A stretch of 64,000 nucleotides of DNA from Gordius sp. MW1. Lineage: Eukaryota; Nematomorpha; Gordioida; Gordea; Gordiidae. Below are positions 54,481 through 60,666 of the stretch, piece by piece; the stretch's first letter is position 1, and each line of letters begins with the position of its first letter. A program made the position numbers and the translations under genes. The notes under the pieces are model-generated. The model had not been told where the DNA came from. It saw only the letters and a list, made by a program, of their open reading frames with translations, and made no database searches. The stretch spans positions 3,044,501 through 3,108,500 of the forward strand of contig OZ038528.1 of NCBI GenBank assembly GCA_964036665.1, given 5' to 3'.

Positions 54481-54713
54481 ACCTACGATTTGAATGTTTG
54501 TGTCCCGACAACGCACTCTGCCAAAGGAGCTTATTAAGGCCCACAGAACCATTAATTTTAAACCAAATCTAAGGTAGAAATTAACCTAGAAAAAAGTGTG
54601 AAATCTTTCAAGCGCCCAACGAATCTCTTGTTTCAACATCTTTTTCAATTATAGAAATGAAAACCACCCTTATGAGGTCACTGCCAGTAAAAAATCTCTT
54701 TTAAAATTTGTGA

Positions 54714-55133
54714 TGTTCCACGTTGGTTTTATTAGCTGATTTGTTTTTCGTTATTTGTTCCCCCCCCCCGCTTACTTGTTTTAATTATCTTTTCGATTGG
54801 CTTTTACCACTAGGATAAATATAGATTTTATTACCCATCTCGAGCGAGCGATTTTAATTACCATCGCGTTATGGTTTATTATTATATCGAATTAAGATTG
54901 TTATTTTATTAACATGATTTAGAAAATATATTTGATTACCTCGATATCGCTCGTAGAAAAATATTATTATATTTTTGGTGTGTCGATAATAATAAAAGAA
55001 GGAAAAATGTAGAAAACTAAAATATATCTCTAAACTTATTTTCGTGTATCTTTTTTCTCGTCGCGTCTTTAGATTAGAATTAATAAATAAGACGATAGAT
55101 CGTTAATAATCCCTTCGTATTCATGGGATTACA
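54714..55133 (+). repeat. 5' LTR of the outer element
   Basis: Starts TGTTCCACGTTGG and ends GGGATTACA. It differs from the 3' LTR at three positions by eye, plus a C-run length change. Confidence 0.88.
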
Positions 55134-55155
55134 AATTGGCGCCGGAAAGGTGGAA

Positions 55156-55276
55156 TCGAACCACTTACTAAAACAATCGAACCACTTACTAGAACAATCG
55201 AACCACTTACTAAAACAATCGAACCACTTACTAAAACAATCGAACCACTTACTAAGACAATCGAACCACTCCATGA
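55156..55276 (+). repeat. 21-bp tandem repeat, ~5.5 copies
   Basis: TCGAACCACTTACTAAAACAA repeats at 55156, 55177, 55198, 55219, 55240 and 55261. The 21-bp period keeps a frame reading SNHLLKQ heptads. It sits just after the primer-binding site, where a leader or gag start would be; whether it is translated is unknown. Confidence 0.9.
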
Positions 55277-55679
55277 TTCGGAAATATTGGGAGACGGAAG
55301 AAGAAAACAATTCCTTCGAACAATTGGCTACCAAATTTAAACCGCAAACATAATTCAGTGGAAATTCCAATATGTCTGAGAACAGATGGCAGAATTCTTC
55401 GAACGAATGAAAATCCCGAAACTGATTTAAATCAAAATATCAATTCTGCAGAATCATCCTTAACTAATTCTCAAGGCCTAAATTCTTAATATGCCGCTAA
55501 AATATTATTGTAAGACAAAATCTTACACTTGATTTATTTACATATTTTAATTATATGACGATTATATTGTTAACCAATATTAAAACAACCCCACCCCCTC
55601 GCGTTTTCTTTGATTATTATTTGGCGGTCTGCGTATTTTGCTTCTATAAAATTAGAAAAGGGTGGCGAGAGTAACAAAA

Positions 55680-55945
55680 TGTTAACATGAAAAGAGCATA
55701 TGACAAGAAGCAAAATGACATTCATTCATTCGCACGCCATTTTGTATTCATATATCAGCAATCCCTAAACTTCACACATTCAACAATTGCATCATCACCA
55801 CACATTTTATAATCAATCACATTCATTCGCATTCCATAACAATACATATTAAGCAAGTGTTCACATTCGCAATCTCACCTGTTATACGTTTAATTCATTC
55901 ACATAATTTCAATCTAAAACATTTAAATAAACAAAATCTTCAACA
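55680..55945 (+). repeat. 5' LTR of the BEL/Pao element
   Basis: TG...CA ends, with CATTCATTCGCA-type internal motifs. It differs from the 3' LTR at five positions plus a 2-bp indel by eye. Confidence 0.9.
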
Positions 55946-55986
55946 TTTGGTCCTTCGAGCCGGATCCAGCACTTGGATTATTAAAT

Positions 55987-57736
55987 ATGAAACCTAAGGT
56001 AGATTCCAAAAGAACAGATATTCTGCACACCATAACTCGTCTTCTCCAGTTTTGCTCAGAAACAGATGATTCCCTTAATTTAATCTGCAGACTGGATGAT
56101 TTAAAATTATCTTACAACAAATTTGTGAATTTAAGTGAAGGTATTTCAAAGGAAGGAGGTGATTGTCAACAGATTTTGGAGCTCGAGGATAGGTACTATG
56201 AGGCTGTAGCTAAAGTACAAGCAAAAATCAATAATCTTAACCAGAGTAATTCAGCTGCTTTGTCTAAAACTAAAATTCCATCTATAGATTTGCCATAGTT
56301 TGGTGGCAAATATGAGGACTGGATCAATTTTTCTGGTCTATTTAAGACTTTGATCCATGAAAACGACAATGTCAGTAATATTGAACTATTTAAAATTGTC
56401 AATTAGGGGCCCTGCAGCAAATATCATTGAATCATTAGAAATTACATCCCAAAATTATGAAGTGGCCTGGGATTTACTTAAGAAAAGATATAACAATAAA
56501 CGTCTTATTATTAATCAACACATCAAGGCCTTATTTCAGTTGGGTACTATTAAAAGAGAATCAGCCGAGAGCTTCGCCATCTACTTGACAACATTTTAAA
56601 ACATACCCGTGCCCTGAAATCACTAAATCGCCCAGTTGACCATTGGGACGACCTGCTTATATTTCTTTTAACCAACAAGTTAGACTCAATCACTGTTAAG
56701 GTTTGGGAAAACTCAATAAAAATGGATGAAACTTCAACCTTTACAACCTTTACAGAATTTTTATCACAAAGGTGCCTTGTTCTAGAAATTACTAATAAAA
56801 TGGACCAAGTCGAACCTATTACCAAATTCCCTGCTTACAGATCCTCATCAACCTTGCTACTTCTAATCCTTCATGTGTAATATGCAATCAGTCACATTTT
56901 GTATACCAGTGTGAAATATTTTTAAATAGTTCAATTAATGAAAAATATGAATGGGTCAAGAAAAGAGTTTTGTGCCTGAACTGTCTTAGGCAAAACCATA
57001 ATGCCTATCAATGCAGGGCCGGAACTTGTAAGATTTGCCAGAAAAGGCATAATACCTTACTGCATAGGTCAGACTTGACTTATGGCAATTTGCATGAGTC
57101 GGCAAACAATACATGCTATGGTCAAAATTCGCAAATTCTTCTGCCAACGGCCATTGTGGAAATACAAGATTCAAAAGGTGTATTTCATTCGTGCCGGGCA
57201 TTGTTAGACTCAGGCTCACAATCAAACTTTATCACCACGAACTTGGCCAATACATTACAAAACAAGCAACATCCCACATCAGTATCTATAGGTGGCATCA
57301 ATCAAATTCAGGCCCCAATCAACTCATACATTTTTACTTGCCTAAAATCTAAATCTAGCCAATTCAACGAATCAACAAAGTTTTTGGTAATCGACAAGAT
57401 AACATCAAACTTGCCTTTACTCTCTTTTCCTAAATCAAATGTATCCATCCCCGATAACATCACTCTTGCAGATCCAAGTTTTAATAAATCAAGTACATTG
57501 GATATTCTTATTGGTGCCGAGTTGTTTTGGGACTTATTAAGGGCAGAGCAATTACAATTTGGTAAAGGCCGGTTGGTACTACAAAACACAAAACTTGGTT
57601 GGGTAGTTTCGGGCCCCTGCCCTCCTTACAACATAAGTGTCCCAATCGAAAAGCTATGTAACATATCCACGCACTCATTGCAAAATCAATTAACTAAATT
57701 TTGGGACATAGAAGAAATTAATCAAAAATTATCCCA
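55987..57736 (+). pseudogene. BEL/Pao gag, zinc knuckles and aspartic protease (broken)
   Basis: Gag starts at 55987. The conserved BEL block is readable across frames: FGGKYEDWINFSGLF, GPAANIIESLEITSQNYEVA, KRYNNKRLIINQHIKALF, then RPVDHWDDLLIFLLTNKLD. There is a TAG at about 56296, frame changes near 56390 and 56595, and another near 56860. From about 56876 the zinc-knuckle array is CVICNQSHFVYQC, then CLNCLRQNHNAYQC and CKICQKRHNTLLH. The protease has LLDSGSQSNFIT (active-site Asp in DSG), and the block ILIGAELFWDLL and LGWVVSGPCP follows. After FWDIEEINQKLSQ, where BEL polyproteins run on to the reverse transcriptase, similarity stops. In the element this protein would form the particle and process itself; this copy cannot. 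Confidence 0.85.
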
Positions 57737-59312
57737 ACCCTCGAGCCGAGCCATGAAATTCGGCTTGATTTCTTCCTTGTTGGGCGACAAAAATGGCCAC
57801 AATTCCATTAAAACTTATAACCAACCAGGGAATCACTCGCCCCCAGATCCCAACAACAATAACAGTTTTAAACGTGCGGCCTACAATAATAGGAGTTTTC
57901 GACTTTTCCGTTTGCAAAATAAATTACCCTGTCCCCCTCCTGCAGGACATTATGACATAAACGGTAGTGATTATGGTACTGCCGCCGACCAACACAACGT
58001 GACCCTTTTTAACAAAGAGGTTGCCTGCGAAATGGGCTTGCGGCCGCCTTATCATATGCATCATCATTTGGACGATACTTTGTCTGGTCGATCGGGCTCT
58101 TCTAAAGGTTCTTCAGACAGGGAGAGGCAATCCCTTAATTCAACCAAAAAATTATCCAGAGGCAACGGATCCTGTTGTAGTAGCACCCAAAGCAACTATC
58201 ACGTCCACAGCAGGTCCATTGCGTGCAGTAAATCCTCGTCGCAATACAATAACTCGTCGCGATGCAGCGTGCTCAATGACGAAACGGATATCAATGGGCG
58301 GCCTGGTGAATCGATGTCATACGGTGGCAACACTCAACCTAATTGTACTCCACCTACGCGTATTAAATGCTACGAGACAGTCAAAATCATCCCTCATACC
58401 TCGGAAAAAACCCAGAACTCTCGGTTCGATTAAGAAGAAGAAAGAGCTAAGGGGTGATGATGACGAATTCGAACTCAATCCCCAAGTCCAAAAGCGGTAC
58501 AGCTTAATCATGAAACAGCGGGCCTTGCTGCAAGAAACCCTGACACAAAAACCAGTGGAGCCCAGCCATGGCCTCGCATCTCCCAATCCCTACTTATGCC
58601 AAACGGGCAAACCGCATTTCGCTTTTAGCGATACCAACGAAAGGCAAACCAAAGTTCTTTCCCTGTTATCTTCATCATCAACCTCGGGTTCTTCTTCTAT
58701 GGAAGAAGAGTATCCCCCACCCCTTTACCCAACTACGATTACTCATAACTTCAATAATAGCTCAATCAGTAATAACGCGTCGGGCATGAAAAGTTATTAC
58801 AATACTAACCAAGCCTTGGTACCTCATCATCGTTATACCCCTAACATACGCAATAATTCAACCTTGGGCCTATCCAAAAATACCCATCGATATCTCAATA
58901 CCCCACCATCAACCTATCCTGGTCTCAAAGAATACAAGGGATCGGATCTCTTGGCACACATGGTCAATCGGTTTAGTTCGAGCTCTTCGAGCGACCAATA
59001 CAAGGCTGTAGATTCGCTCTACTCGTCGAAAAATGATAAAAGTTGTAGCGGATCAAATAATATAGACCGACACTCGATAGGATCAATCATTTCTCAATCG
59101 TCGTGCAAAAAAAACAGGCTCGAACACCTCTTTGGATGTAGATTCTGCCATTTCTTCCGACTCAAACGAAAAATCTTTAACTCAAACCGAAGGATTAACC
59201 GAATTGCGAGATGTCCGAATAATAAATTCTCGAGGATGTGTTGCATCAAAGTATAAAAAGGCTCCACCCAAACCACCTCCCCGAAATTGTAGCCTAAAAA
59301 GCGGAAACTTCT
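57737..59312 (+). CDS. Foreign coding segment captured by the BEL element, unidentified
   Basis: About 1.57 kb between BEL protease and DUF5641 has no retroelement motif. It is visibly GC-richer than its surroundings and reads open for long stretches. Frame 1 continues in frame from the protease to a TAA at 58431-58433. Frame 2 takes over around the A run 58405-58410, and frame 3 around the A run 59107-59114 to a TAG at about 59312. The product is hydrophilic: Asn/Pro-rich start, HMHHHLDD, Ser-rich stretches, KKKKELRGDDDEFELN, VQKRYSLIMKQRALLQETL, SSSSTSGSSSMEEE, and a tail APPKPPPR that could bind SH3 domains. It looks like the intracellular or disordered C-terminal part of a cellular protein copied from spliced mRNA, since there are no introns. 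I do not recognise the gene. Confidence 0.6.
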
Positions 59313-59520
59313 AGCTAATATGCCTCCGGTAAAGTGGCCTCTAGGACGTATCCAAATTATTCACCCTGATGCAGATGGAATTGTAAGGGTAGCTACTATC
59401 AAAACTATTGGAGGTCTTATTAAAAGACCAGTTGCCAGACTTCACGTCTTACCAATTGATGACAACATTAATGACTTGCCCGATTTAAAGGACTCCACAA
59501 CTTTCGCGGGGGGGGCAGAA
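59313..59520 (+). pseudogene. BEL/Pao C-terminal DUF5641-like remnant and G tract
   Basis: MPPVKWPLGRIQIIHPDADG, then RVATIKTIGGLIKRPVARLH, is the conserved block that follows integrase in BEL/Pao polyproteins. It ends at LPIDDN and a short tail; GCGGGGGGGGCAGAA (59506-59520) is the purine tract priming plus-strand synthesis before the 3' LTR. Its presence proves that the integrase core upstream was lost rather than that the element simply ended. Confidence 0.8.
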
Positions 59521-59784
59521 TGTTAACATGAAAAGAGCATATGACAAGAAGCAAGATGATTCATTCATTCGCACACTATTTTGTATTCATATATCAGCAA
59601 TCCCTAAACTTCACACATTCAACAATTGCATCATCACCACACATTTTATAATCAATCACATTCATTCGCATTCCATAACAATACATATTAAGCAAGTGTT
59701 CATATTCGCAATCTCACATGTTATACGTTTAATTCATTCACATAATTTCAATCTAAAACATTTAAATAAACAAAATCTTCAACA
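59521..59784 (+). repeat. 3' LTR of the BEL/Pao element
   Basis: Begins TGTTAACATG and ends CTTCAACA. Close to the 5' LTR but with five substitutions and a 2-bp indel. Confidence 0.9.
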
Positions 59785-60245
59785 ATGATTATTTTGATTA
59801 TTTAAAGATGGCAAGTTGTAGTTTAGCTATAAAATAAAAGGAAAACGGTACAGCCTTTGTGATAATTTAGTACTGATTAATTATAATTTTGGTTGCGACT
59901 GTTGCTCGGTGCGTTACAGAGCTGGGACAGAAAGTCCGCTAGCCATGACGTACCCTTTTTATCGCTGAGTCGATCCGAGGGCAAAGGTCATAAACTGGCA
60001 GTAGATGTCAGACGATAAATTATATTAATGGACTAAATTTCACGAAATGTTTGGATATTATGTTGGTTATACTTATACCTATGGTTTGTTTGAACTTTGT
60101 TTTAAAGAATAAGGTAAATCGTCGCCACCTCGACCTAATTCCGCCTCAGTCTTTAAATGGCTTTTAACAACACTGAAACCCCTATACCTTTATCGGAACG
60201 GCAGGACTTTAAGCCTTTGACTTCTCGATGAAGGGGGAGGTGTGG

Positions 60246-60666
60246 TGTTACACGTTGGTTTTATTAGCTGATTTGTTTTTCGTTATTTGTTCCCCCCCCC
60301 CCGCTTACTTGTTTTAATTATCTTTTCGATTGGCTTTTACCACTAGGATAAATATAGATTTTATTACCCATCTCGAGCGAGCGATTTTAATTACCATCAC
60401 GTTATGGTTTATTATTATATCGAATTAAGATTGTTATTTTATTAACATGATTTAGAAAATATATTTGATTACCTCGATATCGCTAGTAGAAAAATATTAT
60501 TATATTTTTGGTGTGTCGATAATAATAAAAGAAGGAAAAATGTAGAAAACTAAAATATATCTCTAAACTTATTTTCGTGTATCTTTTTTCTCGTCGCGTC
60601 TTTAGATTAGAATTAATAAATAAGACGATAGATCGTTAATAATCCCTTCGTATTCATGGGATTACA
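60246..60666 (+). repeat. 3' LTR of the outer element
   Basis: Starts TGTTACACGTTGG and ends GGGATTACA. It is nearly identical to 54714-55133. Confidence 0.88.

Follow-up and report, generated by a model that had tools for sequence, protein, structure and literature searches.

The window analyzed in this study, a 64,000-nucleotide stretch of contig C2 from the assembly of Gordius sp. MW1 (211.8 Mb in 12 contigs), contains an element that is identified as a BEL/Pao LTR retrotransposon derivative by its gag, protease, and pol-tail domains and by its paired LTRs. BEL/Pao is a group of animal elements. The 5′ LTR (about 55672-55945) and the 3′ LTR (about 59521-59784), both on the plus strand like all the window features that follow, were delimited by repeat pairing (families D3 and D6, which match at 55675-55945 and 59516-59784) and by comparison of copies. 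The former ends in ..TCAACA, and its first few bases are lost or changed with respect to the TGTTAACAAAATGTTAAC.. of other copies. Right after it comes a putative primer-binding site, TGGTCC... (55948-55965), proposed from its position only, which includes TCGAGCCG. Homology to the gag domain DUF1759 was detected at 56378-56575 (residues 9-74 of the translation of 56354-56596; Pfam, E = 1.7e-17), within a gag that is broken and not a single open frame in this copy. Further downstream are zinc-knuckle-like CxxC..H..C motifs (56874-57056), seen by eye in the ORF translation and with no match in Pfam, and an aspartic protease, DUF1758 (57201-57611; residues 135-271 of the translation of 56799-58430; Pfam, E = 2.1e-6). 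What is left of the pol C-terminus lies at 59325-59519, where Pfam matched only the C-terminal half of DUF5641 (profile positions 50-94 of 94, E = 3.9e-12), ahead of a G-rich run that extends up to the 3′ LTR. No match to reverse transcriptase (RT), RNase H, or integrase was obtained with Pfam in the six ORF translations scanned from the window, so the element is a non-autonomous derivative and not a full member of BEL/Pao.

Between the protease and the pol tail lies a segment of about 1.6 kb (57728-59324), with a GC content of about 0.41-0.47 versus 0.33-0.38 in the gag-protease part. Most of this layout had been described in the initial annotation of the window: the gag, zinc knuckles, protease, and DUF5641 inside paired LTRs, the missing RT, RNase H, and integrase, and the GC-richer insert were all recovered here, the knuckles by eye only. 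The in-frame fusion of protease and insert that it had proposed also stands; from stop to stop, the joint frame runs from 56799 to 58433 and has 544 codons. Likewise, the inserted segment itself was retained with its limits corrected to those given above, and it is not a single open frame in the window copy.

The BEL copy is nested in a second, short LTR element, with LTRs at about 54709-55132 and 60241-60664 (outer ends placed by eye) and about six 21-nt tandem units within it at 55154-55270. A BEL copy lacking the inserted segment, in locus L030, is also interrupted by a stretch that resembles the LTR of this outer element (by eye).

Parent gene, junctions, and uncaptured relatives

The inserted segment matches five exons of a host gene located on the minus strand of contig C1 (17002230-16999028). 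Specifically, it starts with the 3′ part of exon A (57728-57893; 97.0% identity to C1:17002230-17002065) and goes on through exon B (57894-58912; 95.9% to C1:17001677-17000659), exon C (58913-59080; 96.0% to C1:16999799-16999628), and exon D (59081-59172; 97.9% to C1:16999508-16999415) to the 5′ part of exon E (59173-59324; 93.5% to C1:16999180-16999028). The four introns that separate these exons in the parent gene (388, 862, 123, and 234 nt) all have GT..AG borders and are all absent from the element, in which the exons have the same orientation as in the parent mRNA. A multi-exon parent whose exons are joined in the element was what the initial annotation had named as the decisive test of its main proposal, the capture of a host coding sequence in place of the pol core, and this proposal is borne out. 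Querying the genome with 57737-59312 returned at least 14 matches. Seven of the 14 listed are contiguous intron-less copies, one more is a row from a rearranged one of these, five are ordered, gapped pieces of the single C1 locus, and the last is an isolated exon.

Beyond the captured part, the exons of the parent carry on the same frame, which is open across six modelled exons, and of the 2,682 nt of coding sequence in this incomplete model, the element contains 1,596 nt. The predicted protein is collinear with an unnamed Gordionus protein of 1105 amino acids (P0001), with an overall identity of 32% and strongly conserved blocks. This Gordionus protein was the only relative retrieved by protein searches with a single sequence and then with the two-row alignment, and Pfam gave nothing over the cut-off for either of the two proteins. 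As judged from the open frame over six modelled exons and the collinear Gordionus protein, the predicted parent is a real, uncharacterised host gene.

We refer to BEL copies with the host segment as carriers and to those without it as uncaptured relatives. Having the chimera, its parent gene, and uncaptured BEL copies in a single genome makes it possible to place both switch points with base precision. At the left one (57728-57733), ATTACC is common to the uncaptured relatives and the parent mRNA, and is found in the other carriers that keep the junction, while the window reads ATTATC. Here the relatives have ..CAAAAATTACC followed by GATAAG, the parent mRNA has ..TTCATATTACC followed by CCAACC, and the carriers have ..CAAAAATTACC followed by CCAACC, with one base changed inside the shared stretch (window) or just before it (C1 carrier). 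At the right one (59316-59324), the parent mRNA and the relatives have TAATATGCC in common; ..AGCTAATATGCC is followed by CCAAG in the parent, ..ATGATAATATGCC by TCCGG in the relatives, and ..AGCTAATATGCC by TCCGG in the carriers. Both junctions lie inside parent exons, with a microhomology of 6 nt on the left and 9 nt on the right. Random joins of the same templates (500,000 trials per template) had a mean of 0.7 shared bases, with six or more in about 0.2% and nine or more in about 0.006-0.008% of the trials. Exact shared bases at two mid-exon junctions are the signature of two template switches by the reverse transcriptase, and template switching onto a spliced host transcript, the mechanism put forward in the initial annotation, is the one that best accounts for them. 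The reading frame of both BEL and the parent is preserved at the two junctions, for which the chance is about 1 in 9. The 8-mer TCGAGCCG, previously suggested as a possible switch point, was rejected: it lies within captured exon sequence, 13 nt in from the junction, and also occurs in the corresponding exon of the parent, and the 6-mer and the 9-mer are elsewhere. In the primer-binding region, it is present in the window and in L015 and absent, for example, from the C7 and C8 carriers.

A genome search with the gag-protease part returned at least 40 rows, mostly 95-98% identical. Among 20 of these loci that were fetched, only two (the window and C1:17.30M) pass from the left junction into the host segment, and the other 18 stay in BEL sequence there; at the right junction, the three relatives read (L023, L040, and L041) are uncaptured. 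The stretch missing from the carriers measures about 3.1 kb in a relative on C6, where Pfam identified Peptidase_A17, Integrase_H2C2, the first half of DUF5641, and a weak RT match that falls below the cut-off (17.6 versus 29.6 bits), with no match to RNase H; the frame of this relative is interrupted, which makes it a doubtful helper for the carriers and counts against the explanation favored below. Relatives that keep pol show a divergence similar to that of the carriers. Other BEL copies, with about 57-79% protein identity, were abundant among the matches listed, and such apparently older resident relatives neither support nor exclude an arrival of the element from outside. Integrase matches of another BEL family, spaced mostly every ~5.4 kb among the matches listed, occur at C8:12283523-12355264 in what looks like a tandem BEL array.

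Carrier copies and the proposed capture mechanism

The chimera is present at at least seven places. Four copies are near full length (C2:3.10M, which is the window copy, C7:12.28M, C1:17.30M, and C8:18.40M), and three are partial (C2:5.334M, C2:5.341M, and C2:19.78M), of which the first two, within 7 kb of each other, could represent a single rearranged insertion. Six of the seven places retain the left junction and five the right one, so that further BEL copies with the same junctions, which the initial annotation had proposed looking for, do exist. Their breakpoints agree apart from single-base changes, and such identity points to one capture. All four near full-length carriers have paired LTRs, with 5 mismatches in 264 aligned bases in the window, 2 in 279 in C7, 6 in 279 in C1, and 3 in 266 in C8, gaps not counted. 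Target-site duplications flank three of the four, GTAGG in C7, GTCCT in C1, and GTAT in C8, from which it follows that the chimera moved after the capture; none was found around the window copy, which we count against the explanation favored below. With RT and integrase missing from the window copy, this movement must presumably have used the enzymes of other copies. None of these four carriers has an uninterrupted host frame. One carrier (C1:17296493) is only 0.29 Mb from the parent gene, possibly by chance. The two rearranged carriers at C2:5.330-5.347 Mb (L014 and L015) have inverted segments, and their gag parts are identical where both could be aligned.

We consider it very probable that the segment is a piece of spliced host mRNA captured by a BEL/Pao element via template switching, which replaced pol and was then spread. 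In such a scenario, the host mRNA and BEL/Pao RNA would have been packaged together in one particle. During minus-strand synthesis, the reverse transcriptase would have switched from the BEL RNA to the host mRNA at TAATATGCC and, about 1.6 kb further on, back to the BEL RNA at ATTACC, presumably in this order. The exchange would have cost about 3.1 kb of pol, from RT to integrase plus the first half of DUF5641, leaving a product with LTRs, gag, protease, and the pol tail. This product would have been mobilised in trans by the RT and integrase of other copies, up to the at least seven surviving places.

Introns would likewise be missing if a LINE-type processed retrocopy had been inserted into a BEL element that later lost pol by deletion. 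However, only an internal stretch of the mRNA is present, with edges that coincide both with the shared 6-mer and 9-mer and with the edges of the pol loss, and several events would have to coincide. The edges of the insert pass from mid-exon directly into BEL at the shared bases, with neither a poly-A tail nor a target duplication of the insert's own, and none of the 18 loci read as uncaptured on the left side combines the insert with full pol; we regard such a retrocopy as very unlikely. Joined exons are also accounted for by read-through transduction, the classical model for transforming retroviruses, in which BEL would have inserted in the gene and given a chimeric transcript that was spliced and closed on its 3′ side by a single template switch. 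Against it, the left junction lies mid-exon and has six shared bases, so that it resembles a switch rather than a splice or insertion edge, and the resident exon A of the parent reads through with no BEL remnant, making this route improbable. Finally, we give hardly any credence to the idea that this BEL lineage normally has the segment as one of its domains, or that it derives from another mobile element: nothing was found in its favor, the segment is missing from 18 of 20 fetched gag-protease loci at the left junction and from three relatives at the right one, and the parent has introns and a collinear Gordionus protein.

Comparison with known captures of host mRNA

Retroviruses acquired oncogenes through the capture of host mRNA, and captures of this kind are thought to create new genes elsewhere, with steps that often have to be inferred from decayed remnants. 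In acutely transforming retroviruses, gag is fused to a host fragment, pol is lost, and a helper is needed. The worm element is similar in its gag-host fusion, its loss of pol, and, presumably, its dependence on a helper; in contrast, it is a BEL/Pao retrotransposon in a worm, and no infection or effect on growth is attributed to it. Capture by endogenous retroviruses has been described in crocodilians, where KIT-ligand or nectin3 mRNA is present in several copies, nectin3 replacing env and KIT-ligand being carried without loss of a viral domain (PMC4299795). As in those accounts, the host mRNA in the window element is captured and multicopy, and one of the crocodilian cases also cost a viral gene; the window element, however, is a retrotransposon with its pol replaced.

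On the other hand, LTR-mediated retroposition of host mRNA in animals has been reported by Tan et al. 2016 (doi 10.1101/gr.204925.116; as cited in PMC5408686, PMC8277862, and PMC9674220), and LTR elements of both animals and plants have been described to capture host mRNA by switching templates where short sequences are shared (PMC5408686, PMC8277862, PMC9674220, PMC13317346). Further amplification is possible, the CG17604_r family being named in this context (PMC8277862). As in these reports, the window element has a spliced mRNA fused to the sequence of an LTR element, a few bases in common at the switches, and the possibility of amplification. It appears to differ from them in belonging to BEL/Pao, and it differs in having its RT-to-integrase part exchanged with both flanks in the frame of the element and in being comparable base by base with its parent and uncaptured relatives. 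In Plutella, Pxyfem is also a multicopy fusion of spliced host mRNA with LTR-element remnants, with ATTT at a switch point (PMC9674220). As described there, Pxyfem consists of degraded remnants in tandem clusters, whereas the worm chimera occurs as complete LTR-to-LTR copies at separate sites. The maize element Bs1 contains pieces of three different host genes (PMC13317346, PMC5408686). It resembles the window element in having host gene pieces in an LTR element and differs from it in coming from a plant, not a worm, and in involving three genes. To our knowledge, Bs1 is not a BEL/Pao element.

No BEL/Pao element with a captured host gene was found among the titles and abstract openings listed in the literature searches, a scope that does not extend to the survey of Tan et al. 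2016. The general mechanism is therefore already known, and what differs here is the BEL/Pao group, the RT-to-integrase exchange that leaves both flanks in frame, the phylum, and the fact that the parent, the uncaptured element, and the chimera all survive in one genome. BEL/Pao thus joins the transducers of genes, and Nematomorpha is added to the phyla concerned.

Divergence between captured and resident sequences

Divergence was calculated for all seven carriers except the rearranged C2:5.341M; these six differ by 3.3-4.3% from the resident gene and by 1.4-3.0% from each other. At 40 sites, all carriers for which the site could be read (four to six of them) share a fixed difference from the resident gene, and five further changes are common to some carriers. 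The fixed differences comprise 28 silent, 12 replacement, and no stop changes, against an expectation of 12.1, 26.5, and 1.4 if the same types of change were unconstrained. By comparison, the 79 changes seen in single copies comprise 14 silent, 63 replacement, and two stop changes (expected 22.4, 52.9, and 3.7). On a neutral scale, the fixed differences amount to about 5.8% and the single-copy changes since the burst to about 0.95% (computed by hand; 79 changes over about 8,350 bases). The 40 fixed differences exceed what is expected for a recent capture from the same resident allele, and we count them against the favored explanation. Changes in the resident gene since the burst would account for about 4.6 silent differences, versus 28 seen (Poisson 1e-13, from inputs computed by hand). 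Unconstrained carriage for half of the extra time would predict about 26 replacements, versus 12 seen in all (Poisson 0.002). At the 40 sites, the Gordionus protein (32% identical) is by eye too divergent to tell the ancestral side.

Across 1,694 gag-protease columns, the four full carriers have no private base with respect to 18 uncaptured relatives, and the gag-protease tree is star-like, with the carriers scattered among these 18 loci. The absence of private changes means that the carriers had hardly any shared time inside the element, and that the 40 changes are part of the host gene's own past, with the caveat that private gag changes could be lost when element RNAs recombine. Mostly silent fixed differences, together with a frame that matches at both junctions, are also what selection for a function of the captured frame inside the element would produce. 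We consider such selection unlikely: unless recombination erased the traces, the time shared in the element was too short, the changes of single copies look unconstrained, and the two-end frame match may itself be due to chance.

If the mRNA was captured by template switching as proposed above, it probably came from a copy that had already diverged, as suggested by the 40 mostly silent fixed differences and the absence of private carrier changes. This source would probably be a divergent allele in a highly diverse species, a paralogue since lost, or a related species from which the element arrived later. For the last of these, the capture might have occurred in a closely related worm lineage or species, after which the BEL burst would have brought a foreign piece of gene into the genome of Gordius sp. 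MW1. We hold this as a tentative and rather doubtful possibility, based on the 40 shared sites (28 of them silent, ~5.8%) versus ~0.95% since the burst and on the lack of private gag-protease changes in the carriers; the same figures are equally compatible with a single species of high diversity or with a paralogue that was lost. If it were true, host coding sequence would have travelled from one lineage to another with the retrotransposon as its vector. This divergence raises the testable question of whether host genes pass between lineages or species in such elements.

A separate 300-nt copy of the parent gene, 99% identical and made at the DNA level of the end of intron 4 and part of exon E, is located at L013:4916-5215 (C1:27.996 Mb). 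Of the seven exon-E sites fixed in the carriers, six are of the resident type in this copy and one is of the captured type. Much as in a fold-back element, it lies between long inverted repeats that contain repeated inner units, and related repeats are also present in the parent locus. As for the species itself, C12, which is presumably the mitochondrial contig, encodes a COX1 protein with 97% identity to that of Gordius sp. VVA-2019 and 92% to that of Gordionus alpestris, which places the host among the horsehair worms (Nematomorpha). Outside C12 there are 23 of the 24 COX1 matches (e.g., C8:2829490-2830827), one of them nearly full length, and mitochondrial copies in nuclear contigs look common.
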